A model generated the notes under the pieces. The model worked only from the letters and a program-made list of their open reading frames with translations. It searched no databases and was not told the DNA's origin. A stretch of 64,000 nt of DNA from Arthrobacter gandavensis (GTDB lineage: Bacteria > Actinomycetota > Actinomycetes > Actinomycetales > Micrococcaceae). Position 1 is the first letter of the stretch; every line of letters starts with the position of its first letter. Positions 37,474 through 58,740 of the stretch are shown here, in pieces. The stretch is taken from contig NZ_VTFU01000005.1 in assembly GCF_009192735.1 (NCBI RefSeq), forward strand, positions 1-64,000, read 5' to 3'. Made by a program: the position numbers and the translations under genes.

Positions 37474-38387
37474 TTTTTACTCTCCTCGGTACTGACGATG
37501 ACGCCGGCCAGGCGTGAACCGCTGGAACCTGCCGCGGCCTGGGCCAACCGGTGGCCTCCAACCGTGACGTTCAGCGGGCGGTGGCGGGGATGGCCCAGGT
37601 TCAGGACATCGCCGACGGCAAGATTCAGGACCATTGCCGGTTTCACCGGGATGGAATCCAGCTGCAGCAGGACCTCCACCGGGACGTGGGCGAGTTGCCC
37701 GCGGATCAGTTCCGCCGGCGGCGCTGAGGATCCGGTGCTTCCCACGGGGTCGAGCTGGGGCAGCAGGGCGCCGGCCGGAATGGCAACAGTGGCCGGGGCC
37801 ACGTTGTCACCCACCACCATTTCGAAGGTCGCCACGATCATGGGGTCGGCCGACGCCGCTGCCTGGGCAAACTGGGAGTTGTACTGGATGGACGCCGGGG
37901 TCATTGGCGAGCGCAGTAGCGTTCCCAGGGAATAGTGCAGACCGTCCAGGGCATCATCCATGATGCGTCCCAGGAGCGCCTGTTCGATTTGCGTGAACTT
38001 CCGTTCCGGCGCCGCAATGGCCCCGGTGGCTCCAAGCATGTGTCCCACCCAGGACAGAGCGGCCGGGGTGGGGAACTGGATAACGGCCTTGGCCCCGATG
38101 TTGGGAACGTTGAACAGGACCATTCCGGTGACGGCCGGCAGCCCGGCGGCGTATTCGTCGTAACTGAGGATCTCCACCCGTTCGCTGGTCACCTGGGACA
38201 GCACCCGGACCTTGGCGGTCAGCTGGGTGCCCCATTGGCGGGCAAAGGTGTCGAAGGCCATCTCCAGTACCCGGGCGTGCTCCCGGGCCAGGGTGGTGGG
38301 ACGGCGGAAATCGTAGGCCTCCGGGGAGGCGGCGTCTGCGGGCACGCCAAGGGCAGTTGTTTCATGATGGACCGTCACAAGTGCCAC
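37470..38387 (-). CDS. fliM: flagellar motor switch protein FliM
   Basis: 305 residues. FliM core features include YDFRRPTTLAREHARVLEMAFDTFARQW, a CheC-like middle domain and a C-terminal SpoA domain (VLNLAVGDVLNLGHPRHRPLNV). The N-terminal CheY-binding motif is not obvious, in keeping with the absence of chemotaxis genes here. The listed GTG at 38387 lies on the last base of a FliA-type -10; a second in-frame GTG at 38378 sits about where transcription from that promoter should begin. If the promoter is used, the shorter form on a leaderless mRNA is likely. Confidence 0.93.
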   Translation of the reverse strand: MALVTVHHETTALGVPADAASPEAYDFRRPTTLAREHARVLEMAFDTFARQWGTQLTAKVRVLSQVTSERVEILSYDEYAAGLPAVTGMVLFNVPNIGAKAVIQFPTPAALSWVGHMLGATGAIAAPERKFTQIEQALLGRIMDDALDGLHYSLGTLLRSPMTPASIQYNSQFAQAAASADPMIVATFEMVVGDNVAPATVAIPAGALLPQLDPVGSTGSSAPPAELIRGQLAHVPVEVLLQLDSIPVKPAMVLNLAVGDVLNLGHPRHRPLNVTVGGHRLAQAAAGSSGSRLAGVIVSTEESKK

Positions 38388-38413
38388 TATCGGCAGCGGG
38401 TCCGGAGGCGTAA
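38387..38413 (-). promoter_or_regulatory. FliA-type promoter for fliM and export genes
   Basis: On the minus strand TTAC (38410-38413) is separated by exactly 15 bp from GCCGATAG (38387-38394). The spacing and -10 are identical to the sites before fliC, flgN and flgB. It lies in the 60-bp gap between motB and fliM. Confidence 0.7.
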
Positions 38414-38447
38414 GCCGTTCACCCCGGCTTTCGGGTGTGCCGCCCGG

Positions 38448-39383
38448 CTAGTGCTGCCCGCCGGCTGGCTGCACGGCGGGCTGAGTGGCGGACGGGGTGG
38501 CGGAGGGCTGCGGGGCCGGCTGTCCGGCCGCAGGCTCGCCGGAGACGATTCCGGGAATCAGCTGCCGGACCTCTTCGGTCTGCCCCGACAGCACCACAAT
38601 GTCCACCCGGCGGTTCTGTGCCAGCTCAGCCGATGATGTGCCCGGCGTCAGCGGGCGGGATTCCCCGAAGCCGACAGCCTTGACGCGGCTGAAGTCCACG
38701 CCTGATTCCTCCACCAGGTAGCGCAGCACCTTCACGGCGCGGGACGAGGAGAGCTCCCAGTCCAGTGCGTCGTCCGTGATCTGGCGAACCTGTGCGGTGT
38801 GTCCCTCCACTGAGGCGTGATAGGAGGTGGGGGCAACAATCGGGCCGATGGTCTCCAGGACTGTGACGGCCTGATCGGTGAGATCGGCGGCATCAGGGGC
38901 GAAGAACATTTCGGAGCTCACCAGCCGGATGGTCAGGCCGCGGTCGTCGATTTCGAACCGCACCGTGTCCTGCAGACCCTTCTCCTGAAGACCTGCCCTG
39001 ATCCGTTCCTGGAGTTCGGTCAGGTCCTGGACCTCGGCGGCGGCAAGCGCTGCGGGATCGGTGGCGTCCGGAATTTCGAGGTCCGACTCCCCGGCGCCGG
39101 GCAGGCCGGCGTCCGGCTCAAGGATTTCCTTGTCGTCCACCTGCTCCGGCGTGGCGATGATCCCGACGGCGGTGTCCACCGTGTTGGATTCCACCGCGCC
39201 GAAGCCGGTGGCCAGGGACTCCCGGAGCTGTTCGAATTTTTTCTGGTCCACTGTGGACATGGCGAACAGGACGATGAACATGCACATGAGCACCGTCACC
39301 ATGTCCATATAGGAAGCCATCCAGCGTTCGTCGGGGTGGTTTTCCTCATCCTCTTTGGGCCGACGGCGCCGCGGGGCGCTCAT
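38448..39383 (-). CDS. motB: flagellar stator protein MotB
   Basis: 311 residues: a short basic cytoplasmic N-terminus, a single membrane helix (about 24-45) with the proton-binding Asp27 (SYMDMVTVL), a plug and linker region, and an OmpA-like peptidoglycan-binding domain with VEGHTAQVRQ and VGFGESRP. The last 30 residues are Pro/Ala/Gln-rich. It forms the stator with MotA and is coupled by a 4-bp overlap. The gap to fliM is where fliL is often found; fliL is not there. Confidence 0.95.
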   Translation of the reverse strand: MSAPRRRRPKEDEENHPDERWMASYMDMVTVLMCMFIVLFAMSTVDQKKFEQLRESLATGFGAVESNTVDTAVGIIATPEQVDDKEILEPDAGLPGAGESDLEIPDATDPAALAAAEVQDLTELQERIRAGLQEKGLQDTVRFEIDDRGLTIRLVSSEMFFAPDAADLTDQAVTVLETIGPIVAPTSYHASVEGHTAQVRQITDDALDWELSSSRAVKVLRYLVEESGVDFSRVKAVGFGESRPLTPGTSSAELAQNRRVDIVVLSGQTEEVRQLIPGIVSGEPAAGQPAPQPSATPSATQPAVQPAGGQH

Positions 39384-40186
39384 GCCGCCTCTTTGGTGTC
39401 TTTGATCTTGGGTTCTTTCGGTTCTTTCGCGTCGGCCAGGGCGTGGGCGGGGACCATGGCCCGCAGCCGCTCGCCGAGCAGTCTAGGCTGGCTCCCGGCC
39501 TGCAGGGCGAGGACTCCCTCCATGAGCAGGACCATTTCATCGGCTTCCAGGTCCGCCAGCCGCTTCAACCGGGTGCTGATCGGAAGCCAGAGGAAGTTCG
39601 CCGAAAGCAGGCCCCACAGGGTGGCGACAAAAGCCGTGGCAATCATCGGTCCCAGCGTTGCCGGCGTGTCCAGGTTTTCCAGCACGTGGGTCAGCGACAC
39701 CACGGTGCCGATGATGCCGATTGTCGGGGCGTAGCCGCCGAGTGCGTTGTAGAACTTGACGGGCACCTTGTCGGTGGCTGTCTTTGTGGCGATCTCGTCT
39801 TCGAGCAGGACCCGCAGTTCCTCGCCGTCGGTGCCGTCGGCAATGTTCTGGAGGGCAGTGCGCAGAAAAGGATTTTCCGCTTCCCCGGCGTCCTTTTCCA
39901 GGGCCAGCAGCCCTTCACTGCGGGCCTTTTCGGCCAGCGAGACCACGGAGGCGATGGTGACCCGTGGGTCGGGTGTCTTGCCCGTGAAGGCGCGGGGCAG
40001 GGCCTTGATGGACAGGATGAAGTCCTTGAGCGTCCCGCCCGCAAGGCCCACTGCCAGCGTCGCCCCAAACACGAGGATCATGGGTGCCGGCAGAAGGATG
40101 GCCGTGACGTGGGAGCCCTCAAGGGTGATCATCGCGTAAAGCGACCCAAAGGCCAGAACCAGCCCGATGATTGTTGCGGGATCCAT
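39380..40186 (-). CDS. motA: flagellar stator protein MotA
   Basis: 268 residues with four membrane helices (about 5-22, 27-50, 152-172, 180-202) and a large cytoplasmic loop. The third and fourth helices contain the expected GIIGTVVSLTHVLENLD and TAFVATLWGLLSANFLWLP pattern. A Lys/Glu-rich C-tail follows. It is the stator channel partner of MotB. The start shares one base with the flbD stop (TAATG). Confidence 0.96.
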   Translation of the reverse strand: MDPATIIGLVLAFGSLYAMITLEGSHVTAILLPAPMILVFGATLAVGLAGGTLKDFILSIKALPRAFTGKTPDPRVTIASVVSLAEKARSEGLLALEKDAGEAENPFLRTALQNIADGTDGEELRVLLEDEIATKTATDKVPVKFYNALGGYAPTIGIIGTVVSLTHVLENLDTPATLGPMIATAFVATLWGLLSANFLWLPISTRLKRLADLEADEMVLLMEGVLALQAGSQPRLLGERLRAMVPAHALADAKEPKEPKIKDTKEAA

Positions 40187-40509
40187 TACATTTTCCTAGG
40201 ACGAAGTGGCACGGTAACGCCTGCCGGGCGGCTCTCGCCGGAGCGCCCGGGATCAGTGTCGGTGGCGGAGGGAACGAGGCCCAGGGGCTGCCCGGGCCGG
40301 AAGTCGCCAGGCGGGATGTCGCGGGCCATGGAAATCACCCGGGCACGGTAGCCGGCAATCAGCTCGATGACTTCGGCGAGGCTTTCGGTGACGATGTATT
40401 TGGCGCCGTCGACCATCACCAGAGTGGTGTCCGGGGTGGAATGGATCCGCTCTATGAGGTCCGGATTAATGGCGAACCGGGCATCGTTCAGCCGTGTAAG
40501 AACAATCAT
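40186..40509 (-). CDS. flbD: FlbD/SwrD-type flagellar protein
   Basis: 107 residues. The first 65 match FlbD/SwrD (MIVLTRLNDARFAINPDL and TLVMVDGAKYIVTES), a small cytoplasmic protein encoded before motA in many Gram-positive flagellar loci and linked to motor power in Bacillus. The last 40 residues are a Pro/Gly/Arg-rich extension. First gene of the flbD-motA-motB unit; a FliA-like promoter lies 47 bp upstream. Confidence 0.9.
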   Translation of the reverse strand: MIVLTRLNDARFAINPDLIERIHSTPDTTLVMVDGAKYIVTESLAEVIELIAGYRARVISMARDIPPGDFRPGQPLGLVPSATDTDPGRSGESRPAGVTVPLRPRKM

Positions 40510-40555
40510 GAGCCCGTCCCGGTCGTAGAGCTGGCTTCAAGAGCCATCACTTCTA

Positions 40556-40582
40556 CAGTCGGCTTCCCGGCGCTGTTCGTTA
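40556..40582 (-). promoter_or_regulatory. FliA-type promoter for flbD-motA-motB
   Basis: On the minus strand TAAC (40579-40582) is spaced exactly 15 bp from GCCGACTG (40556-40563), six of eight matching the GCCGATAG of the other sites. It starts immediately after the T-tract of the flgE terminator, so a new transcript can begin where the previous one ends. Confidence 0.6.
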
Positions 40583-40633
40583 GGAAGAGAAAAGCCTCAC
40601 CGGTCCCCTGATGTAGATGGACCGGTGAGGCTT
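40583..40633 (-). terminator. terminator after flgE
   Basis: A perfect 15-bp stem (40592-40606 with 40619-40633), 12-nt loop, followed on the minus strand by TTTTCTCTT. It splits the flagellar run into an upstream unit (flgB to flgE) and a downstream unit starting at flbD. Confidence 0.85.
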
Positions 40634-40638
40634 GTCAC

Positions 40639-41805
40639 TTAGCGCTTGAGGTTTGTCAGTTCCTGCAGGACCTCATCGGAGGTGGTGATGATTCGTGCGT
40701 TGGCCTGGAAGCCGCGCTGGGCGACAATCAGGTTGGTGAATTCCTGGGAAAGGTCCACATTGGACATTTCCAGGGAGCCGGCGGCAACGGCGCCGTTGCC
40801 GCCCACACCGGGACCGCCCACCACTGCCGCACCGGAGTTGGCCGTGGCGACATACGACGAGCCGCCAATCTTTTCGAGTCCGCCCGGGTTGGTGAATCCT
40901 GCCAGCACGATGCGTCCCAGCGCCTGCTTGGATCCGTTGGAGAAGGAGCCGACAAGCGTTCCGTCCGCAGCCATCGACCAGGAATCCAGGGTTCCGGCGC
41001 TGCGGCCGTTCTGGGATGAGACGGCAACCGTGTCGACGTCTGCGTAACCGGTGATGGCGGAGAGGTCCACTGCAACACCGCCAACGGTGAGGACCGCATC
41101 CGCAGGAGCGTTGAGTTTACCGGCGGTGAAGGCCAAGGGCACAGTCGTTGCATCCTTCGCTGAGACGTCCCAGCCGTCGGCGGTGCGTGTGAAGGTTACC
41201 GGCAGGGACGAGGATTCGCCGTTGGCGTTGAAGACCTCCAGGTCCCGGACAAGCTTGGTGCCGGGATCGGCGTCTTCGGGCAGGTTTCCGGTGAGTGCCG
41301 CATTGGTGGTTGCGGCTGCCGGTGCAATGGCACCGGAGGGAATGGTGAGGTCGGTGAGCGCGCCGCCGGCGGCGACGACGCCGTCGGCCGCTCCCCAGCC
41401 CTGGACCAGGCTGCCGTCGGCGGTGACCAGCCGGCCGCTGGCATCAACGTTGAAGGATCCGGCGCGGGTGTACTGGGTCTGGCCGCCCTGGCGGGTGACG
41501 AAGAAGCCGTCGCCGTCAATCATCATGTCGGTGCCGCGGCCGGTGGCCTGTGCCGAGCCCTGCGCGAAGTTGGTGCTGATGCCCGCTACCTGCACGCCCA
41601 ACCCAACCTGTGCTGGGTTTCCACCGCCGGCGTCGGCCCCCGGGGCGGTGGCGCCCTGTGTGAGCTGCGACAGCGTGTCCTGGAACTGGACCGCCGTGGC
41701 CTTGTAGCCGGAGGTGTTGACGTTGGCGATGTTGTTGCCGGTGACGTCAAGCATGGTCTGGTGCGAACGAAGTCCGGATATGCCGGAGTACAGGGAACGG
41801 AGCAT
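40639..41805 (-). CDS. flgE: flagellar hook protein FlgE
   Basis: 388 residues. The N-terminal rod/hook domain LRSLYSGISGLRSHQTMLDVTGNNIANVNT is shared with axial proteins. The D1 start is MIDGDGFFVTR, a middle D2 domain follows, and the C-terminus is QRGFQANARIITTSDEVLQEL. It polymerises into the hook outside the cell. It is the only long axial basal-body protein in the window; no flgG or flgF is seen. A terminator follows 6 bp after the stop. Confidence 0.95.
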   Translation of the reverse strand: MLRSLYSGISGLRSHQTMLDVTGNNIANVNTSGYKATAVQFQDTLSQLTQGATAPGADAGGGNPAQVGLGVQVAGISTNFAQGSAQATGRGTDMMIDGDGFFVTRQGGQTQYTRAGSFNVDASGRLVTADGSLVQGWGAADGVVAAGGALTDLTIPSGAIAPAAATTNAALTGNLPEDADPGTKLVRDLEVFNANGESSSLPVTFTRTADGWDVSAKDATTVPLAFTAGKLNAPADAVLTVGGVAVDLSAITGYADVDTVAVSSQNGRSAGTLDSWSMAADGTLVGSFSNGSKQALGRIVLAGFTNPGGLEKIGGSSYVATANSGAAVVGGPGVGGNGAVAAGSLEMSNVDLSQEFTNLIVAQRGFQANARIITTSDEVLQELTNLKR

Positions 41806-41817
41806 GGGAAACGCCTT

Positions 41818-42345
41818 TCAGCTATTAAGAACGGGAGGTAGGGAAGAACCGGGCGCTGCAGCGGGAGTTTCCCCGTCAGGATCCGGAGTTGGAGCCGGTG
41901 GTGATACAGGGGATGGTTCCGCGGGCGGAACCACCGAAGAGTCGACGACGCCGGAGATCCAGTCGAGCTGGATTTCCTTGCCGCCCACGGTGACGGTCGG
42001 CACTGCGTTGACGAAGGAAACCGAAGTGGCAACTCCGGTCACTTCCACACCGTCGGGACCGGTGTAGCTCACGGTCCGGCCGATGAGGGCGGCTGCGGAT
42101 GTGCGCATCTGCAGGGAGAAGTTTTCCTCGTCCAGCCCGGCCATGGTGGTCAGCTGCTCCATCATGGCCAGTTCAGTGGTCTGGGAGATCATCTGGTTGG
42201 TGTCCATGGGCGAGCTGGGGTCCTGGTTGCGCAGCTGGGTCACCAGAAGGTGCATAAAGACCTCGCTGTCCATGGTCTGCTTCGGGTTACGCACGGCTTC
42301 AGCGGTTTGGACGCCGCTGGACGGTGACACTGCCTCAATGGGCAC
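41818..42345 (-). CDS. flgD: flagellar hook capping protein FlgD
   Basis: 175 residues. The conserved N-terminal block MDSEVFMHLLVTQLRNQDPSSPMD and MEQLTTMAGLDE identify FlgD, the scaffold that caps the growing hook. The C-terminal part is short compared with enterobacterial FlgD, lacking most of the Tudor/Fn3 region, and ends in a Pro-rich tail. It lies 12 bp upstream of flgE and 21 bp downstream of fliK. Confidence 0.93.
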   Translation of the reverse strand: MPIEAVSPSSGVQTAEAVRNPKQTMDSEVFMHLLVTQLRNQDPSSPMDTNQMISQTTELAMMEQLTTMAGLDEENFSLQMRTSAAALIGRTVSYTGPDGVEVTGVATSVSFVNAVPTVTVGGKEIQLDWISGVVDSSVVPPAEPSPVSPPAPTPDPDGETPAAAPGSSLPPVLNS

Positions 42346-42366
42346 GGGTGTTTCTCCTCTTCGTGT

Positions 42367-44181
42367 TCATGCCATGACATCCAGGGCGGTGGTCGCGCCG
42401 GTGAACCCGGAACGTGGGGGTGAAGTTTCATGGCGCCCGGTCTGCACCGGGGCGTTCGCCGCTTCCTCAGCCGGAGCGGCGGGTGTCCTGCCGTTGCGCT
42501 CATCAGCTTGCGCCGCGCCGCCCCCGGGGTTGTTCCCGGGGAAGTTCTGGTCAGAAAGCGTCAGCGTTGCCGATGGCCCGGGGTTGCCGCCGGCCAAATC
42601 CCGCCGCAGATCCACGAGAATATGCCGCAGCGCGTCCCGAGCCGTTTCCGTGGGGGCAAACATTTCCACGCGTACGCCCTCGCTGCTGATCACGGCGCGG
42701 ACCGTCACCGGCCCCAGGTTCTCCGGGGTCACGCTGAGCGTCAGGACGTGTTCACCGGAACCGGCCGCGGCCAGCCGGACCAGCGGCTGGGAAACCTGGT
42801 TCAGCAGCGCCTGGGGAGGAGCGGTTGCAGGTGCGCTGGCGGCCGGGACTGCGGCTGGGACTGCGGCAGGGGCCGCCATGGGGGCGGGGGCAACCGGCGG
42901 CTGCACCACTGCTGCATCCCTGGCCGAAACCTCGAGCCCGGCAACCCCGGAAGCTGCCGCGGCCGATACCGGCGCCACACGCGCAGTCCCGGCCGCGGCC
43001 TGGGGTGCCCCGCTGGCCGGAACCAGTGGGACAGGCACGCCCGAAAGTGCTGCAGCCGGCAGAGCGGGCTCTCCCTCGGCCGCCATGGGGGCGGGGGCCA
43101 CCGGCGGCTGCACCACTGCTGCATTTCTGGCCGAAACCTCGAGCCCGGCAAACCCGGAGGCTGCCGCAGCCGATACCGGCGCCATGCGCGCAGTTCCGCC
43201 GGTGTCCTGAGCCGAGCCGTCCAGTGAGACAGACGCGCCCGGAAGCGGTGTCCGGCCCGGCAGCGCGGGCGAAGCAGGAAGTGTGGCTCCACCCGGCAGT
43301 GTGGGTGAAGCGGGTGCAGCCGGTGCAGACACAACTGCGGGAGCAGCCGGCACCTGTTGTTCCTGCGCGGCGGGCAGTGCCGTGGCCGGCGGCAAAACTG
43401 GCGGCGCGGCTGGCGGCGCGGCTGGCAGCGCGGCTAGCAGCGCGATGCCCGTCGGTGCAGCTGACGGTCCGGTTGCCGGCACCGAGGTGGCTGCTGCCGC
43501 GGGGTGGACCGGGGTGGGAAGCGGTGCGGCGGCGTTGGGGTTCGAAGCCCCTGAGCCGGTACCTGGGGCTGCCCCTGAGCCGGCGGTTGCGGCTGCCCCT
43601 GACCCGGCGGTTGCGGCTGCCCCTGACCCGGCGCTGCTAAGGCGGGGATCCTGCTCTGCGGGAACAGAAGACCCGGCAACAGAGGATTCCGCTGCAGAAG
43701 ACACTGCAGAAGACCCGGCAACAGAGGATCCGGTCACCGGCACTCCAACAACGGCAGCTTCGGCGACGGGTTCAGCGCCGGAGCCCGGAGCGGGAGATGC
43801 TCCGGGCAGTCCGGTCTCGCCCTCCAGCATCTGCAGCGGCTCCCGGAAGTACCAGCCGATCAGCGACCGGGCCGGGTTGAGCCTGGAACCGTCCCCGCTC
43901 TCCACGGGTGCCGCAGGTTCGGCTCCCTCGCCAGCGGCTTCGGGCTGCGCTGCTGCCTCGGGAGAGGCAGAGACAGAAGCCGAGGGATGGGCAGACGCGG
44001 ATGCGGATGCAGCGTTCTCCCCAGGTGCCCCGGCACCGGATACGGCTCCGGCAGCCAATTCCCCTGCAACAGCGGCAAAGGCCGCCGCGGATGCAGAGGT
44101 TCGGCCCGAAGGTGCCGAACTGCCCGAGTCAGCCCGGGGCGGCACTCCGGCAGCGGTGGTGAAGCCCGTAGTCAGGCTCAT
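42367..44181 (-). CDS. fliK: flagellar hook-length control protein FliK
   Basis: 604 residues, mostly Ala/Pro/Gly/Ser-rich low-complexity sequence, as expected for a secreted molecular ruler. The C-terminal Flg_hook domain (about 470-560) has LTLSVTPENLGPVTVRAVI and the export-gate contact region. A 40-residue block (AAAASG-AGLEVSAR-AAVVQPP type) occurs twice, 69 residues apart, encoded by a 120-bp near-perfect DNA duplication. Shorter Ser/Ala repeats occur around 150-210. Position between flgD and the export ATPase genes supports the call. Confidence 0.9.
   Translation of the reverse strand: MSLTTGFTTAAGVPPRADSGSSAPSGRTSASAAAFAAVAGELAAGAVSGAGAPGENAASASASAHPSASVSASPEAAAQPEAAGEGAEPAAPVESGDGSRLNPARSLIGWYFREPLQMLEGETGLPGASPAPGSGAEPVAEAAVVGVPVTGSSVAGSSAVSSAAESSVAGSSVPAEQDPRLSSAGSGAAATAGSGAAATAGSGAAPGTGSGASNPNAAAPLPTPVHPAAAATSVPATGPSAAPTGIALLAALPAAPPAAPPVLPPATALPAAQEQQVPAAPAVVSAPAAPASPTLPGGATLPASPALPGRTPLPGASVSLDGSAQDTGGTARMAPVSAAAASGFAGLEVSARNAAVVQPPVAPAPMAAEGEPALPAAALSGVPVPLVPASGAPQAAAGTARVAPVSAAAASGVAGLEVSARDAAVVQPPVAPAPMAAPAAVPAAVPAASAPATAPPQALLNQVSQPLVRLAAAGSGEHVLTLSVTPENLGPVTVRAVISSEGVRVEMFAPTETARDALRHILVDLRRDLAGGNPGPSATLTLSDQNFPGNNPGGGAAQADERNGRTPAAPAEEAANAPVQTGRHETSPPRSGFTGATTALDVMA
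42871..42990. repeat. 120-bp duplication in fliK, copy 1
   Basis: In-frame direct repeat inside fliK; copy 2 is at 43078-43197, offset 207 bp (69 codons). The two copies differ at about a dozen positions. Confidence 0.9.
43078..43197. repeat. 120-bp duplication in fliK, copy 2
   Basis: Second copy of the in-frame repeat at 42871-42990. It encodes the same Ala/Val/Pro-rich block, so the ruler part of FliK has grown by duplication. Confidence 0.9.
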
Positions 44182-44882: not shown

Positions 44883-45313
44883 GACATGGCTTCCTTCTGC
44901 CGGCGCTGCCAGGCGGTACCCGCCAGCTCGTCCAGAACCGTTTGTTCCGTCCGTAGATCTTCGGCAGCAACAAAGCCCGCGTGCCGTGCTTCCAGTTTTT
45001 CCAGTCCGACGGATTCGGCACGGGCAGCCGAATAAACGGTCTGTGCCGCCGCTGCGTCGGATTCCAGCCGGGACCCCAGTGCGGCGAGATCCGCCAGCAT
45101 GGCCCGGGAGGAGGCCCGGGCCGCTGCGACGGCATGCATGGTGGCACTGTCGGTGGCCATCACCGGGCTCTCCGTCAGCGACAGGTACGCTTCTGCCTGC
45201 TCGTCAGCGGTCTCCCGGACACGGGTGTTGGCAGCTGCAAGCTTTGCTGCGGCAGCCTCTTCCTGGAGCCGCCGCAGCCTCAGCAGCCCGGCCAGGGGAA
45301 AGACGCGGCTCAT
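44879..45313 (-). CDS. fliJ: flagellar export protein FliJ
   Basis: 144 residues, almost entirely alpha-helical and Ala/Glu/Arg-rich, the coiled-coil hairpin pattern of the FliJ stalk that links the FliI ATPase to FlhA. The N-terminus FPLAGLLRLRRLQEE is FliJ-like. The start is ATG 45313, overlapping the fliI stop (ATGA), rather than a longer in-frame ATG inside fliI. Divergent in sequence, so position carries much of the assignment. Confidence 0.82.
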   Translation of the reverse strand: MSRVFPLAGLLRLRRLQEEAAAAKLAAANTRVRETADEQAEAYLSLTESPVMATDSATMHAVAAARASSRAMLADLAALGSRLESDAAAAQTVYSAARAESVGLEKLEARHAGFVAAEDLRTEQTVLDELAGTAWQRRQKEAMS

Positions 45314-48339: not shown

Positions 48340-49952
48340 GCGGGCTGTCCTTCATCCATGAACGTGCGCAGGTATTCGGCCGTGCGGGCGGGGTCCTGTC
48401 CCGCGAGGGCATCGACCTCCACGCGCTTGCGTTCCGTGGAATCCCTGGTGATGGGCACAATGGGAATGCCCGCAGTGTCCGTGGACATGCTGATTGCCGT
48501 GGTGGCGGGTTCGCTCTGGCCAATCATGGCCAGCTTGGTGGCCGGTGCCAGCGGATCAAGCTCCGGCAGCTCGCCAATGTCGATGGCCTCGCGGTTTTGG
48601 CGGCGGGAACGCACCGCGTAGAACACCATGAGCAGGAGCACGGCGAGAACAATTCCGGCGGCCTGGATGATGTTGTTCACCAGTTGGGCGCGGCGCTCTT
48701 CGGCGGCGGCATCCGCGGCGGCCGACAGCGCGTCCTGGGCAGCCTGGGCTCCCCCGGTGTTGAAGGCCACCATCTCCACTGTCAGCTGGTCTCCGCGTTC
48801 GGCATTGATGCCGGCGGCCGTAGCCACGAGGGCTTCAACGTTGCCCAGGTTCAGGCCGGCGGCCGCTTCTGCGTTCAGGGCCACTGACACGGTTTGGCGG
48901 TTCAGGGCTCCGGCGGGGATTTCGCGGGTTTCGGTGACCTTGTTGACCGCGTTGTTGCGGGTGCTGGTCTCGGAGTTGAAGGTTCCGTCACCGTTGCCGT
49001 CATTGGGAACGGCGATGTTGTCCGGGCCCAGGACGCCGGCGGCGCCGCCGGCCGCCCCACCGGCGTAAGCCTCAGTGGTGGTGGCTTCATTCAGGGCGGG
49101 AGCGTTTTCCGGGCTGGTGAAGGATTCCTCCACGCGGTTGGCGGATTCGTAGCTCATGTCGGCGGCGACAGCCACGGTGGCGTTGCCGGGTCCCACAACG
49201 CGGTCCAGCATGGTCTGCACCGATGTTGACACGCGTTCCTCATAGTCCGAGGACTGCTTGTCCGCTGATCCGGTGGCGCCCACGCCGACGGCGGAAAGGA
49301 CGGTTCCGGCCGAGTCGATCACTGCAACGTTGGTGGCGTCCATGCCGTCAATCGATGCCGAGGTCAGGTGCACGATGGCCTGGATCTGGTCAGTTCCCAG
49401 AGTGACGCCGTTCTCGGTCTCCACGAACACCGAAGCGGTTGGGTCCGCCTTTTCGGAGACAAAGACTGTGTCTTCCGGAATCGCGAGCTGAACGGTTGCG
49501 GCTTTCACGCCGTCGAGCGCTCCCACTGTTTTCGCCAGCTCGCCTTCCAGCGCCCGCTTGTAGGTGACGGACTGCTGGAATTCGGAGGAGGTGACGCCCA
49601 TGTCATCCAGCAGCGAATAGCCGCCGGTGGACGACGCCGGGAGGCCGGCGCCCGCGGCTTTCAGCCGCTGGTCATAGACGTTTGCCTCAGGCACCATGAC
49701 CGTGCCGCCGCCGTTGGCGATCTCGTAGGGGACGCCGTCGGTCTTGAGCTGTTCCACAATGGTGTTCGCGTCCGACGCTGACAGGCCGGAAAAGAGCGGG
49801 GTGTACGCCGGTTTGGTGAGCCAGCTGGTCAGCATGACGATCCCCAGGGCCAGTACGGCCACGCCGATGATGGTGATTGTTTTCTGCGCCAGGGAAAAGC
49901 TGCGCACCGTTTCGCCGATTCGTCCGAAAGCGGCGTTCATGGGACGCGCCAT
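48336..49952 (-). CDS. fliF: flagellar MS-ring protein FliF
   Basis: 538 residues with two membrane helices (about 24-44 and 435-457) flanking a large YscJ-like ring-building region; LFSGLSASDANTIVEQLKTDGVPYEI is typical. The C-terminal cytoplasmic tail that binds FliG is present. It shares one base with the fliE stop (TGATG). Confidence 0.97.
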   Translation of the reverse strand: MARPMNAAFGRIGETVRSFSLAQKTITIIGVAVLALGIVMLTSWLTKPAYTPLFSGLSASDANTIVEQLKTDGVPYEIANGGGTVMVPEANVYDQRLKAAGAGLPASSTGGYSLLDDMGVTSSEFQQSVTYKRALEGELAKTVGALDGVKAATVQLAIPEDTVFVSEKADPTASVFVETENGVTLGTDQIQAIVHLTSASIDGMDATNVAVIDSAGTVLSAVGVGATGSADKQSSDYEERVSTSVQTMLDRVVGPGNATVAVAADMSYESANRVEESFTSPENAPALNEATTTEAYAGGAAGGAAGVLGPDNIAVPNDGNGDGTFNSETSTRNNAVNKVTETREIPAGALNRQTVSVALNAEAAAGLNLGNVEALVATAAGINAERGDQLTVEMVAFNTGGAQAAQDALSAAADAAAEERRAQLVNNIIQAAGIVLAVLLLMVFYAVRSRRQNREAIDIGELPELDPLAPATKLAMIGQSEPATTAISMSTDTAGIPIVPITRDSTERKRVEVDALAGQDPARTAEYLRTFMDEGQPA

Positions 49953-50257
49953 CAGGCCTGCATCCGCATGATCTCGTTGAAGGCGTCAACGGCCTTGTTG
50001 CGGACTCCGGCCACCAGTTCCAGGGTGACCTGGGCGCGCGTGGAGGCAATGGTGGCGCTGTGAATATCGTCGAGGTCGCCGGTCACGGCCTGCACCGCAA
50101 GGCTCTTCGAGGTCGCCTGCAGCTGTGCAATGTTGTCCACGGCTCCGGTCAGGGACGCGGCGAAGGCCGATCCATCGGTGGATGCCGTCGCCGGCAGCGC
50201 GTCAAGATAGCTGGTGGGGGCTACACCGGAGATGGCCGGAATGGGGGGAACGGGCAT
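49952..50257 (-). CDS. fliE: flagellar hook-basal body junction protein FliE
   Basis: 101 residues, the normal size. The conserved C-terminal helices ASTRAQVTLELVAGVRNKAV and DAFNEIMRMQ are diagnostic. FliE connects the MS ring to the rod and is the first exported axial protein. It is encoded directly between flgC and fliF with one-base overlaps on both sides. Confidence 0.95.
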   Translation of the reverse strand: MPVPPIPAISGVAPTSYLDALPATASTDGSAFAASLTGAVDNIAQLQATSKSLAVQAVTGDLDDIHSATIASTRAQVTLELVAGVRNKAVDAFNEIMRMQA

Positions 50258-50649
50258 CAGGAGCGTCCAATCTGGAGAGCAGCTTCATACGTGGATTTGG
50301 CGCGGTCCACCACGGCGGCATTTGCTTCATAGCCGCGCTGCGCCAGGATGAGGTTGCTCATCTGTTCGGACATGTCGATATCCGGGTAGCGGACGTAACC
50401 GTCAGCGTCCGCAAGAGCGTGGTCGGGCTGGTAGACCATCCGGCCCTCGGCGTCTCCGTACTCGACGCCTGATACGTAGACGCCGCTGACGCCCTGGCCT
50501 TCCTGGGCCACTACGTAGCGGGCTTGGAAAGCGGACCCGTCGGTGCGGGAGACGTTGTTGGCGTTGGCCAGGTTGTCCGAAACGGCGTCGAGCCACTTGC
50601 GGTGAGTCGTCAGCCCGGTGGCGGCAATGCCGATGGCGTCAAAGGTCAT
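50257..50649 (-). CDS. flgC: flagellar basal-body rod protein FlgC
   Basis: 130 residues: N-terminal rod domain with TGLTTHRKWLDAVSDNLANANN, a short middle, and a C-terminal YPDIDMSEQMSNLILAQRGYEANAAV segment typical of FlgC. The start overlaps the flgB stop as ATGA. Confidence 0.96.
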   Translation of the reverse strand: MTFDAIGIAATGLTTHRKWLDAVSDNLANANNVSRTDGSAFQARYVVAQEGQGVSGVYVSGVEYGDAEGRMVYQPDHALADADGYVRYPDIDMSEQMSNLILAQRGYEANAAVVDRAKSTYEAALQIGRS

Positions 50650-50990
50650 GACTGTGTCCTCAGCGCGGTGCGGAGGGAGTTCGCTTCTCCGCCGACGGCC
50701 TGCGTGGCGAATTGGTACCGCAGCACCGTGTCGATGTTGGAGAGGGTTTCGGTGTCGAGGTTGACGTTGCTGCCGTCCAACCGCGTAGGTTCCATTGACC
50801 GTTCCGTAGTGGCTTTTGCGACGCCGGAGCCGGCACGGACGGAGCTGGCCAATGCAGCTTCAAAACTTACCCGCTGGGCCTGATAGCCCGGGGTGTTCAC
50901 ATTCGCAATGTTGTTTGCAATGGTGCGTTGACGCAGAGCCAACCCGTCAAGGGCGCTTTGCAGCGCAATTGAGGACACGGAATCGAACAC
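50646..50990 (-). CDS. flgB: flagellar basal-body rod protein FlgB
   Basis: 114 residues, proximal rod subunit, with the N-terminal motif LQSALDGLALRQRTIANNIANVNTPGYQ. First gene of the long minus-strand unit flgB-flgC-fliE-fliF-fliG-fliH-fliI-fliJ-C40-fliK-flgD-flgE. A FliA-type promoter lies about 80 bp upstream. Confidence 0.96.
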   Translation of the reverse strand: MFDSVSSIALQSALDGLALRQRTIANNIANVNTPGYQAQRVSFEAALASSVRAGSGVAKATTERSMEPTRLDGSNVNLDTETLSNIDTVLRYQFATQAVGGEANSLRTALRTQS

Positions 50991-51066
50991 GGAAAAACCC
51001 GTTCTCGCTGAGGGACAGTGCGGCCGATCCGTGGCCTGGAAATGAGCATTCCTTGCTCGATAGTGG

Positions 51067-51093
51067 CTATCGGCCTATCCGACAGGTATGTAA
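51067..51093 (-). promoter_or_regulatory. FliA-type promoter for the flgB operon
   Basis: Minus strand: TTAC (51090-51093), exactly 15 bp, GCCGATAG (51067-51074). It leaves a leader of roughly 70 nt before flgB. The intergenic DNA 51094-51169 shows no other element I can name. Confidence 0.75.
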
Positions 51094-51169
51094 GTAGTTT
51101 CTCCAAGTAATTAAGACGCAATTACAGGTAGTTTGAGTTTTGCTTCCGAGTACTTAGCGGATGCCCGGA

Positions 51170-51517
51170 TTAACCCGCCACATCCAAATACACAGCAGCC
51201 GCCGAAGGACCGGGAACGCTGCGGATTAGTTCGGCCTGCCGCCGGTTTGTCCGGGCCTCCCCGCGGAGCTGGATGTAGGCCCTTTCCTGGGCCTTGGCCA
51301 GAAGGCGGGCACGCGGCATCAGCTCGGCGGGCAGTGGCCCCAGATTCAGTGCGGGCTGCCACGTCAGTGCTAGTTCACGTGCCTGGACCGAGACCATTTC
51401 CGCCGGTTCCCGGAAAACCTCCAGGTTGTCTTCGAGTTCGGTGAGCACCCGCTCCCACAGGGCCAGGTTCCCGGCGGCTTCATCGGAGAGGTCCGGGCCG
51501 ATCGCTTCAGCCGACAC
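51170..51517 (-). CDS. small helical protein, possible FliT-like chaperone
   Basis: 115 residues, predicted mainly helical, encoded directly after fliS with an 11-bp overlap and a good GGAGG site before its GTG. FliT, the export chaperone for the cap protein FliD, is commonly encoded here, and size and helical character fit; the sequence shows no firm FliT signature. It is the last gene of the fliC-fliD-fliS group. Confidence 0.7.
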   Translation of the reverse strand: MSAEAIGPDLSDEAAGNLALWERVLTELEDNLEVFREPAEMVSVQARELALTWQPALNLGPLPAELMPRARLLAKAQERAYIQLRGEARTNRRQAELIRSVPGPSAAAVYLDVAG

Positions 51518-51941
51518 CGAGGGTGCCTCCGGCGTTCAACGGCGCTGACGTTTGTGCAGGCACCTGTGCCGCGGCTTCATGCCATGCCAGGCGCAGCGGC
51601 TCCAGCAGGTCGATGCACTCGCGGGTTCGCTCCGGGCTGCGGTGGATATTGGCATCCATCATGGTGGTCAGGCTGTAGGCGTAGAGGGCCTTGAGGTTTT
51701 CGGCCCCGTCCCAGATGTCAGTCTTCAGCGTGCCCGTGAGCTCCGAGACGATGGCCTGCGCATGCACCAGGTTCTCCGATGCCACCGCCCAGTTTCCGGA
51801 CAGCTGGGCAGCTTCGGCTCGGCTCAGGTCCAGCAGGAGACGGTCGTAGAGCATGGTCAGCAGCCGTGCGGGTGTTGCGGACATGACGGCATTACGGGCG
51901 TATTCGGCGCGCTTGGCTGCCATTCCGTAGGTCAGGTTCAT
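51507..51941 (-). CDS. fliS: flagellin export chaperone FliS
   Basis: 144 residues. FliS features: an N-terminal Tyr-containing segment (YARNAVMSATPARLLTMLYDRLLLDL) and the four-helix bundle with LYAYSLTTMMDANI. It binds flagellin before export. The ATG at 51941 overlaps the fliD stop as ATGA; a longer in-frame reading runs through fliD and was rejected. Confidence 0.95.
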   Translation of the reverse strand: MNLTYGMAAKRAEYARNAVMSATPARLLTMLYDRLLLDLSRAEAAQLSGNWAVASENLVHAQAIVSELTGTLKTDIWDGAENLKALYAYSLTTMMDANIHRSPERTRECIDLLEPLRLAWHEAAAQVPAQTSAPLNAGGTLGVG

Positions 51942-53299
51942 TTCTTGCTTCCTGAAGTGAAGTTCAGCGAATCGATCTGGGATGTCAGCCATTCCTGCTG
52001 TGACTGCAACTGGCCCAGCTTTACTTCCAAGTTGGACCACACGCTCTGCAGAGTGGACTGGCGGGATGCGAGCCGGCGGTCCCAGTCCTCGATCTGTGTG
52101 GTGAGGGACCGGACTTCGGATTCCTGGCCCTTGATCCGCTGGGTGATCGTGCCGTCGTATTTGTCCGATGCCGTTTTACCGGCTGCTTCCACCCGGCCGG
52201 CAATGGTTTGCAGGGTCGCCTGGGTCTTGCCCGGATCGGCGGCCAGGGCTGCGGCGAACTTCTCGGCGTCGAACTCCACCGTGCCGTCCTTGGTGATCAC
52301 AATGCCGATCTCCGACGGCGACCGGCCGTCCACCGGAGACGTCGCGGCGGTCATCATGCTCTGCTTGATGTCGCGGACGCCCGAGTCACCCGTGAAGAGG
52401 CCGCCGGTGGCCTGTGTGGTGCCCGACGACGTGGAGGTGGTGACGGCAGCATTGCGGTTGATGTAGGAAAAGATATCCACGAGGCCGGCCACCAGTTTGG
52501 AGGCGACGTCGGTGACGGCCTTGTCATCGCGGACCACGGTCAGCGTGACGGGCGTATCCGAGGCGGAGGTGACCGTAACGTCCACACCCGGCATGAGGCC
52601 GGTGAAAGTATTGGTCGGGGAGGAAATGGTGGTTTCAGCACCGGGCACGCCGGCCCAGAGGGTGACTTCGGCGTTGCGGGCGGCCTTCAGCACCATTCCC
52701 CCGCCGGCTGTGCTGAACGGATCGGTGCCGTTGGCGGTGACGCTGAACCCGGCATCGGATCCGGTGGCGGTGGACGTGAGCTGGATGCGGTATTGGGTCG
52801 CCCCGGCGGTGTCTACTCCGGCCGCGATCTTGACGGCGGTGACGCCCTTGTTGGCCTTGTTGACCTCGGAGACCACTTCGTCGAGGGACTTGCCGTCCAC
52901 GTTGAGGGTGGTGGATGTTCCGGCGGCGCTGATGGTGATTTCGGTGGCATCCGTGGGCCAGGAGGTCAGGGCTGCGGAGAGGCTGACCTGCGCCGATGCG
53001 GTCTGTTTGACCACCATGTCCAGGGATCCCGCGGCTGCACCGGCCGTGACGGCGGCGGTGACTTTGTCCGAGCTGCTGGCTGCGGTGTAGAGGTCGGTTC
53101 CGGCCGGTTTGGCGGTTTTTCCGGCGGCCTCGGCCATGACGGCCATTTTGGTGTTCAGCTGCTGCAGGGCGCTGACGAACGTCTGGCTGGCGGCCACCTT
53201 GGTCTTCAGGATGTTCTGCGGGCGCGCTTCGATCTGCATGAGACTGGCGATCATCTCAGTGGTCTTCAGGCCGCTGATGAGGCCATCGATTCCTGCCAT
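51938..53299 (-). CDS. fliD: flagellar filament capping protein FliD
   Basis: 453 residues. The N-terminal GLISGLKTTEMIASLMQIEARP and the C-terminal helical region (LTTQIEDWDRRLASRQ) form the conserved D0/D1 parts. The middle is a variable beta-rich domain facing outward. An AGGAG site precedes the ATG. It caps the filament tip so flagellin can fold into place. Confidence 0.95.
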   Translation of the reverse strand: MAGIDGLISGLKTTEMIASLMQIEARPQNILKTKVAASQTFVSALQQLNTKMAVMAEAAGKTAKPAGTDLYTAASSSDKVTAAVTAGAAAGSLDMVVKQTASAQVSLSAALTSWPTDATEITISAAGTSTTLNVDGKSLDEVVSEVNKANKGVTAVKIAAGVDTAGATQYRIQLTSTATGSDAGFSVTANGTDPFSTAGGGMVLKAARNAEVTLWAGVPGAETTISSPTNTFTGLMPGVDVTVTSASDTPVTLTVVRDDKAVTDVASKLVAGLVDIFSYINRNAAVTTSTSSGTTQATGGLFTGDSGVRDIKQSMMTAATSPVDGRSPSEIGIVITKDGTVEFDAEKFAAALAADPGKTQATLQTIAGRVEAAGKTASDKYDGTITQRIKGQESEVRSLTTQIEDWDRRLASRQSTLQSVWSNLEVKLGQLQSQQEWLTSQIDSLNFTSGSKK

Positions 53300-53344
53300 G
53301 TGTGCTGATCTCCTAGGACTGATACGGATGAGGCAGGTGATGAA

Positions 53345-53390
53345 CCGGCGGCGGAGAGTGTGAGGTCCAAGTCAGTTTCTCCGCCGCCGG
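53345..53390 (-). terminator. hairpin between fliC and fliD
   Basis: A 13-bp perfect stem (53345-53357 with 53378-53390) and a 20-nt loop. The tail has only TTCAT, so it may attenuate rather than stop transcription, keeping flagellin mRNA in excess over fliD. The 53300-53441 gap holds no gene and no clear second promoter. Confidence 0.5.
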
Positions 53391-53441
53391 CGGTCATTCA
53401 CCTGCCGGTAACGCTGGTGGTGCTAGTTGTTGCGACTGCTA

Positions 53442-54269
53442 CTACTGCAGGAGCTGCATCACGCCGGAGTTCATCTGGTTGGCCTGGGACAGCATTGCGG
53501 TGCCGGCCTGGGACAGGATCTGCGAACGGGTGAAGTTGGCCATTTCCGAAGCCATGTCAGTGTCGCGGATACGGGATCCGGCGGCGGACAGGTTCTCGAT
53601 GGACACGTTCAGGCTCTTCGTTACCGACTCCAGGCGGTTCTGGGATGCACCCAGCTCGGAGCGTGCGCCGGAGACGTTTTTGATCTGGGTGTCCAAGGCA
53701 GTGATCGAAGTAGCTGCGTTCGCAGCGGAGTCGAACGTCAGGCCTGCAACAGCGGTCGCGACCGTGGCGATGTTCGTCAGGTCCACGGTGATCTGGTCAT
53801 TGGCTGCTACGCCGCCGGCACCAACCTGGAAGGTCAGGGTCGGGCTGGAGCCGTCCAACAGTTCGATTCCGTTGAAGTTTGTCGAAGCACTAATCCGGGT
53901 AAGTTCCTCGGAAAGAGCCGTGACCTCGGTCTGGATCGCGGTGCGTGAATCTGCGTTGTTCGAGTCGTTACCGGCCTGGACAGCCAGGTCGCGGACACGG
54001 TTCAGGATGGAGTGGACCTCGGTCAGGGCGCCTTCAGCGGTCTGAATGACGCTGATGCCGTCCTGGGCGTTGCGTGCTGCCTGGGTCATGCCGGAAACCT
54101 GGTTCTTCAGGCCTTCGGAGATCGCCAGACCGGCTGCATCGTCAGCTGCACGGTTGATCCGCAGACCGCTGGAAAGCTTCTCCAGGGACTTGGACTGTGC
54201 ATTCTGGTTCAGCGTCAAGTTGCGGTACGCGTTGTTTGAAGCGGTGTTGGTGTTGATTGTGAAACCCAT
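53442..54269 (-). CDS. fliC: flagellin
   Basis: 275 residues, a short flagellin consisting of the D0/D1 coiled-coil parts with a small central domain. N-terminal: INTNTASNNAYRNLTLNQ and LSSGLRINRAADDAAGLAI. C-terminal: DTDMASEMANFTRSQILSQAG. The start at 54269 has GGAGG 8 nt upstream. The leader carries two possible CsrA sites, and a FliA-type promoter lies at 54330-54356. Only one flagellin gene is present in the window. Confidence 0.97.
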   Translation of the reverse strand: MGFTINTNTASNNAYRNLTLNQNAQSKSLEKLSSGLRINRAADDAAGLAISEGLKNQVSGMTQAARNAQDGISVIQTAEGALTEVHSILNRVRDLAVQAGNDSNNADSRTAIQTEVTALSEELTRISASTNFNGIELLDGSSPTLTFQVGAGGVAANDQITVDLTNIATVATAVAGLTFDSAANAATSITALDTQIKNVSGARSELGASQNRLESVTKSLNVSIENLSAAGSRIRDTDMASEMANFTRSQILSQAGTAMLSQANQMNSGVMQLLQ

Positions 54270-54277
54270 GATGTATT

Positions 54278-54317
54278 CCTCCGTGAGTGGGCTGTACTGA
54301 CCAGCCCATCCATGGGC
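54278..54317 (-). promoter_or_regulatory. candidate double CsrA site in the flagellin leader
   Basis: In the predicted fliC mRNA leader a hairpin with stem GCCCA/TGGGC presents TGGA in its loop (54304-54317). A second GGA pair lies in the Shine-Dalgarno CGGAGGA (54278-54282 core). Two GGA sites, one in a loop and one over the ribosome site, is the layout known for flagellin mRNA repression by CsrA in Bacillus. That CsrA binds here is inference. Confidence 0.5.
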
Positions 54318-54329
54318 CGGCAACCATAG

Positions 54330-54356
54330 CTATCGGCGGAGGATCATCAGGTGTTA
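54330..54356 (-). promoter_or_regulatory. FliA-type promoter of fliC
   Basis: Minus strand: TAAC (54353-54356), 15 bp, GCCGATAG (54330-54337). Flagellin genes are the standard FliA target, which makes this the reference for the other four sites. Confidence 0.82.
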
Positions 54357-54397
54357 GGAGTTCTGCACAAGTTGTTTTTTGATTCCCTGCCAAAGGC

Positions 54398-55276
54398 TTA
54401 GGCGGGCATGCGGCCGGAATCGGCCAGCGGAGCGCGCGGAGGGAAATGCTCGCGCGTGATGCCGCCGATGGTCCGGTCCGCCATGGTGGACAAATAGGCG
54501 GCCCGGCGTGCCGGCGCAATGCGGGACTGCACCGGAGGAACGACGTCGTCGTCCGTGTAATGGGCGCCCAAACCGTCACGGAGGAGGCGGACAGCCTCAG
54601 CGCGCTGCTGGGAAACCGCGGAATGGGTGGCCCCCAGCTCAGCCGCCAAATCCTTGACGCTGCGGTCGTGAAAGTAGACTTGTTCCACGATGTACCGCAT
54701 TTTGGGCGGCAGGGCGGAGACGGCGGCCTGCAGATACTTCAGGCGCTCCGCTGCCAAGAGGGATCCCTCGGGTGACGGAAGCGTTGTCGCCAGGAAGTCG
54801 ATGGTGGACTCGTCGAGGCTGGAAACGGTGCGCGATGCATCCGCCAGCGCGTCCTGCGCCACCGATGGCTCCACCCCAAGGGCCGAGGCAATCTCGCCCA
54901 CAGCGGGAGTGCGGCCCAGGGCAGCGGTCAGGGTTTCCTTGACCGCGAGGGTTTCCTTGATCCGGCGGCGTGCGGTTCTGGTGGCCCAGTCCACCGACCG
55001 CATTTCATCGGCAAAAGCGCCAATGATGCGGCGGCGGGCATACGCACCGAAAGGAACACCCAGTTCAGGATTAAAGGAATCAGCGGACATGATCAAAGCC
55101 ACGGATCCGGCCGACGCAAGGTCATCCCGGGAGAGGTGCGTTGCTTTTGCGCATGTTTCAGAGACAAGATAACCAACCAGTGGAAGATTTTCGACTACGA
55201 GACGGTTGCGTTCAAGACGATTCAATTTTTGCGGACCCCCAAGCCCTTGTGACAGACAAATATGTACCTGGCACAT
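54398..55276 (-). CDS. fliA: flagellar sigma factor FliA (sigma-28 family)
   Basis: 292 residues from the first ATG. Sigma region 2 appears as LPLVGYLVSE through GVPFGAYARRRIIGAFADEMR, region 3 as LGRTPAVGEIASALGV, and region 4 as DRSVKDLAAELGATHSAVSQQR with its helix-turn-helix. Architecture is that of group 3 FliA factors. A C-terminal extension of about 50 residues is extra. The start is uncertain: a TTG about 17 codons on has a G-rich ribosome-like site. It is divergent from flgN. No flgM anti-sigma gene is visible nearby. Confidence 0.9.
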   Translation of the reverse strand: MCQVHICLSQGLGGPQKLNRLERNRLVVENLPLVGYLVSETCAKATHLSRDDLASAGSVALIMSADSFNPELGVPFGAYARRRIIGAFADEMRSVDWATRTARRRIKETLAVKETLTAALGRTPAVGEIASALGVEPSVAQDALADASRTVSSLDESTIDFLATTLPSPEGSLLAAERLKYLQAAVSALPPKMRYIVEQVYFHDRSVKDLAAELGATHSAVSQQRAEAVRLLRDGLGAHYTDDDVVPPVQSRIAPARRAAYLSTMADRTIGGITREHFPPRAPLADSGRMPA

Positions 55277-55337
55277 GGCTTAGGGCTGAGACCCACTAAA
55301 AACCCCACGCGCGAGCGTATACCGTGAAAGATACCAC

Positions 55338-55364
55338 TAACATTGCGGGCCGAAGTGCCGATAG
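55338..55364 (+). promoter_or_regulatory. FliA-type promoter of flgN-flgK-flgL-fliW
   Basis: Plus strand: TAAC (55338-55341), 15 bp, GCCGATAG (55357-55364), identical to the fliC promoter. It lies in the 166-bp region divergent from fliA. Confidence 0.82.
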
Positions 55365-55442
55365 TGACGGACAACGGATAAATCGTTATGTTTTGCCGGA
55401 AATTTTGGACATTACAAGATCAATTGAGGGAGGTGAGTGGAG

Positions 55443-55928: not shown

Positions 55929-55949
55929 CCCCGAAGGACCAAACTCCTG

Positions 55950-57353: not shown

Positions 57354-57356
57354 CCC

Positions 57357-58636: not shown

Positions 58637-58681
58637 GGGCATCCCAGCCGCAGCCAATCAAGGTTGCCAATAGAGGCAGCC

Positions 58682-58726: not shown

Positions 58727-58740
58727 CGCGCCTGACGCTA

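Follow-up and report, generated by a model that had tools for sequence, protein, structure and literature searches.

Textbook flagellar regulation consists of staged transcription gated by the export of FlgM, and the flagellar locus of Arthrobacter gandavensis raises the question of whether its operons are staged at all at the level of transcription initiation. We analyzed a stretch of 64,000 nucleotides (positions 1 to 64,000 of the forward strand of contig NZ_VTFU01000005.1, assembly GCF_009192735.1; hereafter the window), for which a first-pass annotation had proposed five promoters of the flagellar sigma factor FliA (sigma-28) with one rigid architecture. All five sequences are present at the coordinates and on the strands claimed: TAAC-N15-GCCGATAG ahead of fliC (54330–54356, minus strand; the fliC ATG is at 54269), and further FliA-type sites ahead of flgN-flgK-flgL-fliW (55338–55364, plus strand), of the flgB to flgE operon for rod, MS ring, export ATPase and hook (51067–51093, minus strand; flgB starts at 50990), of fliM-fliN-fliO-fliP-fliQ-fliR-flhB-flhA (38387–38413, minus strand) and of flbD-motA-motB (40556–40582, minus strand), the last with the degenerate -10 element GCCGACTG. 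These five sites are probably sigma-28 promoters, with a single FliA switch serving all structural operons in a scheme that is flat at transcription initiation. This reading builds on where the sites lie, on their uniqueness and conservation, on their linkage to fliA and on the absence of a match to FlgM.

The sites head five units, namely flgB to flgE, flbD-motA-motB, fliM to flhA, fliC-fliD-fliS-orf115 and the divergent flgN-flgK-flgL-fliW, and every class of gene (rod, MS ring, C ring, export gate, hook, stator and filament) stands behind a FliA-type site. In all 24 flagellar loci compared within the genus, one conserved promoter type heads all structural operons, the exceptions being csrA, which lies about 1 kilobase beyond flhA, and fliA, which is located between fliC and flgN.

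The pattern TWAC-N15-GCCGATAG (W, A or T; N15, a spacer of fifteen bases) has four exact matches in the genome of 3,722,081 bases (3.72 Mb), every one inside the flagellar locus, before fliC, flgN, flgB and fliM. By 100 shuffles, 0.00 matches would be expected within the window, and the reversed control occurs three times in the genome in exact form. When one mismatch was tolerated, nine matches were obtained versus 19 for the reversed control, so that the signal was swamped, and the additional matches (L006–L009) were rejected as real sites because the control yields more. The looser pattern TWA-N16-GCCGAWA recovered the four exact sites and one at C4:1731, versus 12 matches for its control; the site at C4:1731, which faces no coding-looking gene on its strand, was rejected as a FliA target. 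The flbD form, TAAC-N15-GCCGACTG, has two exact matches in the genome, one of them outside the locus, and its reversed control has three.

For comparison within the genus, 29 genomes were used, which hold 24 syntenic flagellar loci (the window included), and sites were scored out of 12 with only G counted as a match at the last -10 base, a rule also applied to the peptidase sites described below. All five promoters are present in 24/24 loci, and the spacing is N15 in 119 of the 120 sites, the exception being the fliC site of G016 (N16); the flgN site is exact in 24/24 loci, and the flgB site scores 10–12/12 in 24/24. Across the 119 N15 sites, which were picked by a score of at least 10/12, the -35 bases are T (119), A or T, A (119) and C (119), and the -10 bases are G (116), C (113), C (119), G (119), A (119), T (95), A (116) and G (89) or A (30). 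The information per column amounts to 1.9–2.1 bits in the boxes, a figure raised by the score-based picking, to 0.5–1.1 bits in the spacers and to 0.7–1.6 bits in the flanks. As a spacing control in the same 24 loci, N15 gave 59 sites of 12/12 and 56 of 11/12; N10–N14, N17 and N18 gave no site of 12/12 and at most four of 11/12 per spacing, N16 gave one of 12/12, and N19 and N20 gave thirteen and two of 11/12, respectively. No internal gene in these loci reached 11/12, and no FliA-type site was found before fliA (best 7–9/12, 25 genomes) or csrA (best 6–9/12, 24 genomes).

The flbD site is the weakest of the five, not significant alone and convincing by comparison. Its -10 element reads GCCGAAAG in 21 of the 24 genus loci and GCCGAATG in two, the version in the window being the most degenerate; the site scores at least 10/12 in 24/24 loci, at 46–50 nucleotides from the start, and 21 reach 11/12. 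Between flgE and this promoter lies a terminator-like hairpin (40592–40634, minus strand) followed by TTTTCTCTT; the fold of 40583–40640 has an energy of -35.1 kcal/mol (z -7.45), and a separate pattern scan did not list the hairpin. Because this terminator-like hairpin after flgE is strong, the stator unit (flbD-motA-motB) probably needs a promoter of its own. The stretch upstream of the flgB promoter has no notable fold (z 0.10).

The sites are also tied to the gene for their presumed sigma factor. The fliA gene (54398–55225, minus strand; 275 amino acids) matches TIGR02479 (E 2.9e-31) together with the Pfam Sigma70 regions 2 and 4, both above the Pfam cut-offs, region 3 being below; by alignment, translation probably begins at TTG 55225 and not at ATG 55276. 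An orthologue (73–100% identity) is found in 25 of the 29 genus genomes. At least two exact sites occur in 24 of these 25, including all 24 with a flagellar locus, and none in G004, which has fliA without the locus; the four genomes lacking fliA contain 0, 1, 0 and 0 exact sites. Of the 76 exact matches in all 29 genomes, the flagellar locus accounts for 59 and the region upstream of a single peptidase gene for 13, with four elsewhere; the reversed control occurs 11 times. The earlier worry that equally many matches might lie at random positions was thus not borne out, and the recognition by FliA that had been assumed gains support at the sequence level from exact sites unique in the genome, from their persistence in 24/24 loci while the spacers drift, and from their tie to fliA.

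Outside the genus, the comparison drew on 79 of 80 named loci (Micrococcaceae, Microbacteriaceae, Occultella and others), of which 13 belong to the genus (L138–L149, L151); fliC, flgB and flgN are present in 12 of these. The locus left out, L191, comes from a record titled Vibrio cholerae that appeared amid Arthrobacter records with a FliA match of 61% and is probably contamination. As loci without the gene or without a placeable start were dropped, the totals are 68 for fliC, 63 for flgB and 71 for flgN. A family set of 98 genomes with a FliA match, 77 of them outside the genus, supplied 30 hand-chosen genomes for fliM and flbD. In these wider-locus and family counts, as in the fliM start codon counts below, G or A was accepted as the last -10 base, and the wider-locus, family and peptidase scans took the best score over spacings of 11–19. 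The flgB site reaches at least 11/12 in 63/63 wider loci (38 N15, 25 N16; 51/51 without genus members). The fliC site does so in 54/68 (42/56 without genus members) and reaches at least 10/12 in 67/68 (64 N15, 3 N16; 55/56 without genus members), and the flgN site reaches at least 11/12 in 63/71 (51/59). For fliM, 26/30 non-genus family genomes score at least 11/12; for flbD, 23/28 score at least 11/12 and 28/28 at least 10/12. Before fliA, fliD, fliS, flgC, fliE, fliF, flgK and flgL, the wider loci hold no site of 11/12. Because the sites recur before flgB and fliM outside the genus, FliA control of the early operons looks older than the genus, and it is perhaps ancestral in the order.

Two parts of the first-pass annotation have to be narrowed in light of these comparisons. 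A spacing of exactly 15 is true of the five window sites and of nearly all genus sites (119/120), and breaks down outside the genus, where flgB has N16 in 25/63 loci; we therefore rejected exact N15 as a peculiarity of this locus, the more so as it is the canonical sigma-28 spacing. Similarly, the set defines the locus as far as early, middle and late operons are concerned, with the flgB site in 63/63 wider loci, and does not extend to fliA and csrA, which have no site.

The features of a classical tiered FliA/FlgM system are missing here: FlgM was not found, and the sites stand before flgB and fliM as well as before fliC and flgN. The FlgM profile PF04316 matched in 0/29 genus genomes and in 4/14 controls, including Escherichia coli and Bacillus subtilis; a short, divergent anti-sigma factor could escape this profile. 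One study describes FlgM as missing from later actinobacterial classes (PMC10746217). We propose that RNA polymerase bearing FliA would start five transcripts (flgB to flgE, fliM to flhA, flbD-motA-motB, fliC-fliD-fliS-orf115 and flgN-flgK-flgL-fliW), and that fliA would be transcribed independently of FliA, perhaps from an extended -10 element that faces the flgN promoter. As no FlgM was found, FliA would not have to await completion of the hook-basal body, and the operons would be expected to switch on together, so that below fliA the scheme would be flat. Export-substrate switching and, probably, translational control of fliC by CsrA/FliW would impose order at a later stage. Flagella whose structural operons all appear to answer to one sigma factor, with FlgM undetected, would make the value of transcriptional staging directly testable.

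The sigma-28 consensus given in PMC2859248, TAAAGTTT-n11-GCCGATAA, equals TAAA-N15-GCCGATAA. The sites described here, TWAC-N15-GCCGATAR (R, A or G), thus share the layout of the class 3 regulon of E. coli and Salmonella and differ from it in the fourth -35 base, which is C in the locus and A in the consensus. In E. coli and Salmonella, FliA serves late genes after FlgM has been exported, and basal-body genes belong to class 2, under FlhDC. In contrast, the flgB and fliM operons of this locus share fliC-type sites, and FlgM was not found. A parallel exists in actinobacteria. In Actinoplanes missouriensis, Jang et al. in 2016 reportedly mapped transcription starts, found one conserved promoter for the whole cluster and proposed simultaneous synthesis. 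In addition, the flagellar genes of Actinoplanes are directed by WhiG-like sigma factors of the flagellar kind (PMC8325347). Because of this precedent, a flat FliA scheme is itself not new in kind, which limits the surprise; for Arthrobacter or Micrococcales, no title reporting one was among the matches listed in open-licence literature. A. missouriensis uses three FliA-family factors in sporangium development (PMC13293333, PMC11064477). The locus studied here differs in its one FliA, another -35 element, a leaderless-looking fliM and, for most relatives in the genus, a peptidase target. Rubrobacter radiotolerans is another actinobacterium in which a sigma factor of the flagellar clade, WhiG, recognizes promoters of the form TAAA / GCCGATAA, and 12/20 predicted sites of its regulon lay upstream of mapped starts (PMC8325347); that regulon differs in its tie to type IV pilus and cyclic di-GMP genes and in the anti-sigma factor RsiG.

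Several observations weigh against the one-switch reading. Besides the possible anti-sigma factor mentioned above, the top NCBIfam match of FliA, FliA_WhiG, scores 109.7 bits versus a curated cut-off of 189.6; G018 has one exact site and lacks fliA; and scores of 10/12 are unspecific, being found also before flgE (5/24) and fliD (4/24) in the genus loci and before flgC in 19/63 wider loci. In addition, 8/71 wider flgN loci score below 11/12, four of the 30 non-genus genomes (G046, G058, G126 and G155) have no fliM site, and a sigma-70 promoter scan of 40000–59000, which found none versus 1.7 expected, was limited in its reach to this interval without fliM and to one promoter type, so that extra promoters are possible.

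The last point bears on a rival reading, namely that tiered control is hidden: the early operons would first be transcribed from a second, FliA-independent promoter, and their FliA sites would provide a mere later boost. FliA-independent promoters of early operons are present in enteric bacteria and Bacillus, and weakly conserved actinobacterial housekeeping promoters could have escaped a sigma-70 scan that did not extend to fliM. However, a FliA box precedes both flgB and fliM in 24/24 genus loci, the fliM site lies right against the start codon and directly behind motB, and there is no FlgM match to create a late tier; we therefore consider hidden tiers unlikely. It is far less probable that the sites are used by another FliA/WhiG-like sigma factor. 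The genome holds three further matches to the FliA_WhiG profile besides fliA, and WhiG has the same promoter specificity (PMC8325347). The sites nevertheless track the fliA orthologue (at least two exact sites in 24/25 genomes with it and in 0/4 without), and G002 and G018 retain more distant sigma factor matches, yet lack two or more exact sites. That some sites, the flbD site foremost, are chance matches is scarcely credible: the exact flbD motif does occur twice in the genome, its reversed control three times, and scores of 10/12 arise elsewhere in the locus, but the site holds at least 10/12 in 24/24 genus loci and in 28/28 other family genomes with an flbD match, and in the window it follows the strong terminator-like hairpin.

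The export-gate operon may have a further peculiarity. The fliM gene (37470–38378, minus strand; Pfam FliM) appears to start at 38378, with a GTG that begins at the ninth base past the -10 element. A GTG at the same ninth base was found in 50/50 fliM sites scoring at least 11/12, out of 54 loci (24 of the genus and 26/30 others, from 13 further genera). Of the eight bases between the -10 element and the GTG, the first is invariably T and the others vary, and a Shine-Dalgarno-like string occurs there in 1/50. Such a fixed distance would be expected if fliM transcription began at the start codon, and the fliM transcript is thus probably leaderless; the export-gate operon may accordingly have a leaderless start that is conserved. 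It is unlikely that translation instead starts downstream or that the transcript begins upstream, inside motB: a longer open frame of 305 amino acids does extend back into the -10 element, but the fixed GTG offset and the near absence of Shine-Dalgarno-like strings in the 50 sites argue against both. The listed fliM open frame begins inside the -10 box, at 38387, and the likely start is at 38378 (window 38376–38387).

A second layer of control may act on flagellin. The locus includes csrA (30006–30275, minus strand; NCBIfam NF002469, 73.4 bits, cut-off 73), present in 24/24 genus loci, and fliW (58241–58636, plus strand; Pfam FliW, E 1.5e-19), seen in 6/24, as many of the retrieved stretches end before this gene or right at it. 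The fliC leader contains a CsrA-site-like hairpin whose loop includes GGA (54301–54320, minus strand), and a second GGA lies at the Shine-Dalgarno near 54277–54283. The leader motif GGCCC-AYGGAN-GGGCC (Y, C or T) is present in 24/24 genus loci (ending GGGCU in the window), the second GGA lies inside ACGGAGGA in 24/24, and the -10 element is 59–61 nucleotides from the ATG. Among 14 distinct fliC leaders, taken by eye from the 24, 96.4% of the cells of the GGA hairpin are paired, and 19/500 shuffles are as high; under a strict stem rule, 35/67 wider leaders pass (23/55 outside the genus) versus 1.7% of shuffles. Counting on the other side, four of the six pairs are invariant across the leaders, and the best fold (minimum free energy) of the window leader alone is a different hairpin (z -1.28).

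In B. subtilis, CsrA occludes the hag Shine-Dalgarno and FliW frees it, and FlgM acts alongside CsrA (PMC6529632). The csrA and fliW genes of the locus, the putative GGA hairpin of the fliC leader and the GGA at its Shine-Dalgarno resemble this Hag-FliW-CsrA system, and with this precedent, a translational CsrA/FliW checkpoint on fliC is likely. Unlike in B. subtilis, FlgM was not found in the genus, so CsrA would be predicted to be the main check on flagellin. The flat hierarchy proposed in the first-pass annotation can be upheld as promoter architecture alone, and a later translational tier is likely.

FliA-type sites also occur outside the flagellar locus. A large metallopeptidase of reprolysin-like type that contains FG-GAP repeats (L104–L113, L116–L137; 22 genus genomes), probably secreted judging by eye from its hydrophobic N-terminus, is found in 22/25 fliA-bearing genomes and in 0/4 without fliA (Fisher p 0.0015, uncorrected for kinship). 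In 20/22 genomes, a FliA-type site with N15 spacing and a score of 11/12 or more ends 73–117 nucleotides upstream of the peptidase match; G013 has none, and that of G017 is irregular. No peptidase match was found in the genome of the window, G006 or G022. In most genus relatives, the five promoters are accordingly not the whole regulon, the peptidase being a predicted further target.

In G004, FliA appears to have persisted after loss of the flagellum. Genome-wide, this genome has no flhA match, and within 33 kilobases around fliA, where alone other flagellar genes were sought, no flagellar gene besides fliA was found; it keeps an intact fliA, the fliA leader and the peptidase with its FliA-type site. 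The ratio of nonsynonymous to synonymous substitution rates (dN/dS) of fliA is 0.08–0.14 between G004 and six others and 0.04–0.16 for six other pairs, which gives no sign of decay, with synonymous sites near saturation and the loss possibly too recent to tell. The peptidase may offer a clear-cut example in which a flagellar sigma factor has another function where the flagellum is gone. By eye, G004:C11 at about 34150–35200 (L102) carries an apparent relic of the flgN promoter, followed by a terminator-like hairpin. The gene after it, which we take to be an aldo/keto reductase, also adjoins the locus in the window (58741–59577).

The promoter region of fliA would be the single point deciding the whole operon set. 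Autoregulation through a FliA site of its own was rejected, as no such site exists in 25 genomes. A candidate promoter, the extended -10 element TGGTATCTT (55328–55336, minus strand), abuts the -35 element of the flgN promoter; TGGTATNTT precedes fliA in 23/25 genus genomes (exceptions G004 and G007), and an extended -10 element stands at the same place in just 16/63 wider loci, so that its role as fliA promoter is a genus-level guess. The fliA leader contains a hairpin with a WCUCAG loop (55283–55294, minus strand), the loop being present in 25/25 genomes; its pairs 1–6 are formed in 19, 19, 12, 17, 17 and 15 of 19 distinct leaders, as raw counts without a shuffle control. A CsrA-like GGA is not conserved in this leader, where GGA and GGG are both seen, and an Rfam scan of 54100–55500 gave no match. 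Within the leader (window 55225–55340), the Shine-Dalgarno region GGGGGUCC could pair with an upstream GGRC. Two genomes carry a second FliA-like sigma factor on a smaller contig, G021:C2:130215–130994 (L053, 47% identity) and G001:C2:136566–137339 (L054, 45% identity), and both keep the main fliA.

A broader picture can be put forward tentatively, as a possibility that we would hold somewhat less probable than its negation: in Micrococcales, FliA would be no late-gene factor but the one switch for the entire flagellum, and across most of the genus it would control the peptidase as well; a lineage that lost the flagellum could retain FliA for the peptidase, as in G004; with FlgM absent, the checkpoint would lie further downstream, with CsrA/FliW acting on the fliC leader; and, as the promoters of fliA and flgN abut, polymerase carrying FliA would block transcription of fliA, a form of negative feedback.

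Gene names in the locus, fliC excepted, which lay outside the profile scanning, derive largely from profile matches. The operon flgB-flgC-fliE-fliF-fliG-fliH-fliI-fliJ-nlpC-fliK-flgD-flgE (40639–50990, minus strand) was named from such matches, several below curated cut-offs, with flgB called from its rod domain and gene order and nlpC denoting an NlpC/P60 protein; orf115 has no Pfam match. The switch and export-gate genes fliN-fliO-fliP-fliQ-fliR-flhB-flhA (31259–37473, minus strand) have profile matches for fliN, fliO, fliP, flhB and flhA, those of fliO, flhB and flhA being below curated cut-offs, and fliQ and fliR were named solely by order and length. The gap of about 1 kilobase between flhA and csrA (30276–31258) contains, without a Pfam match, an overlapping frame of 363 amino acids.

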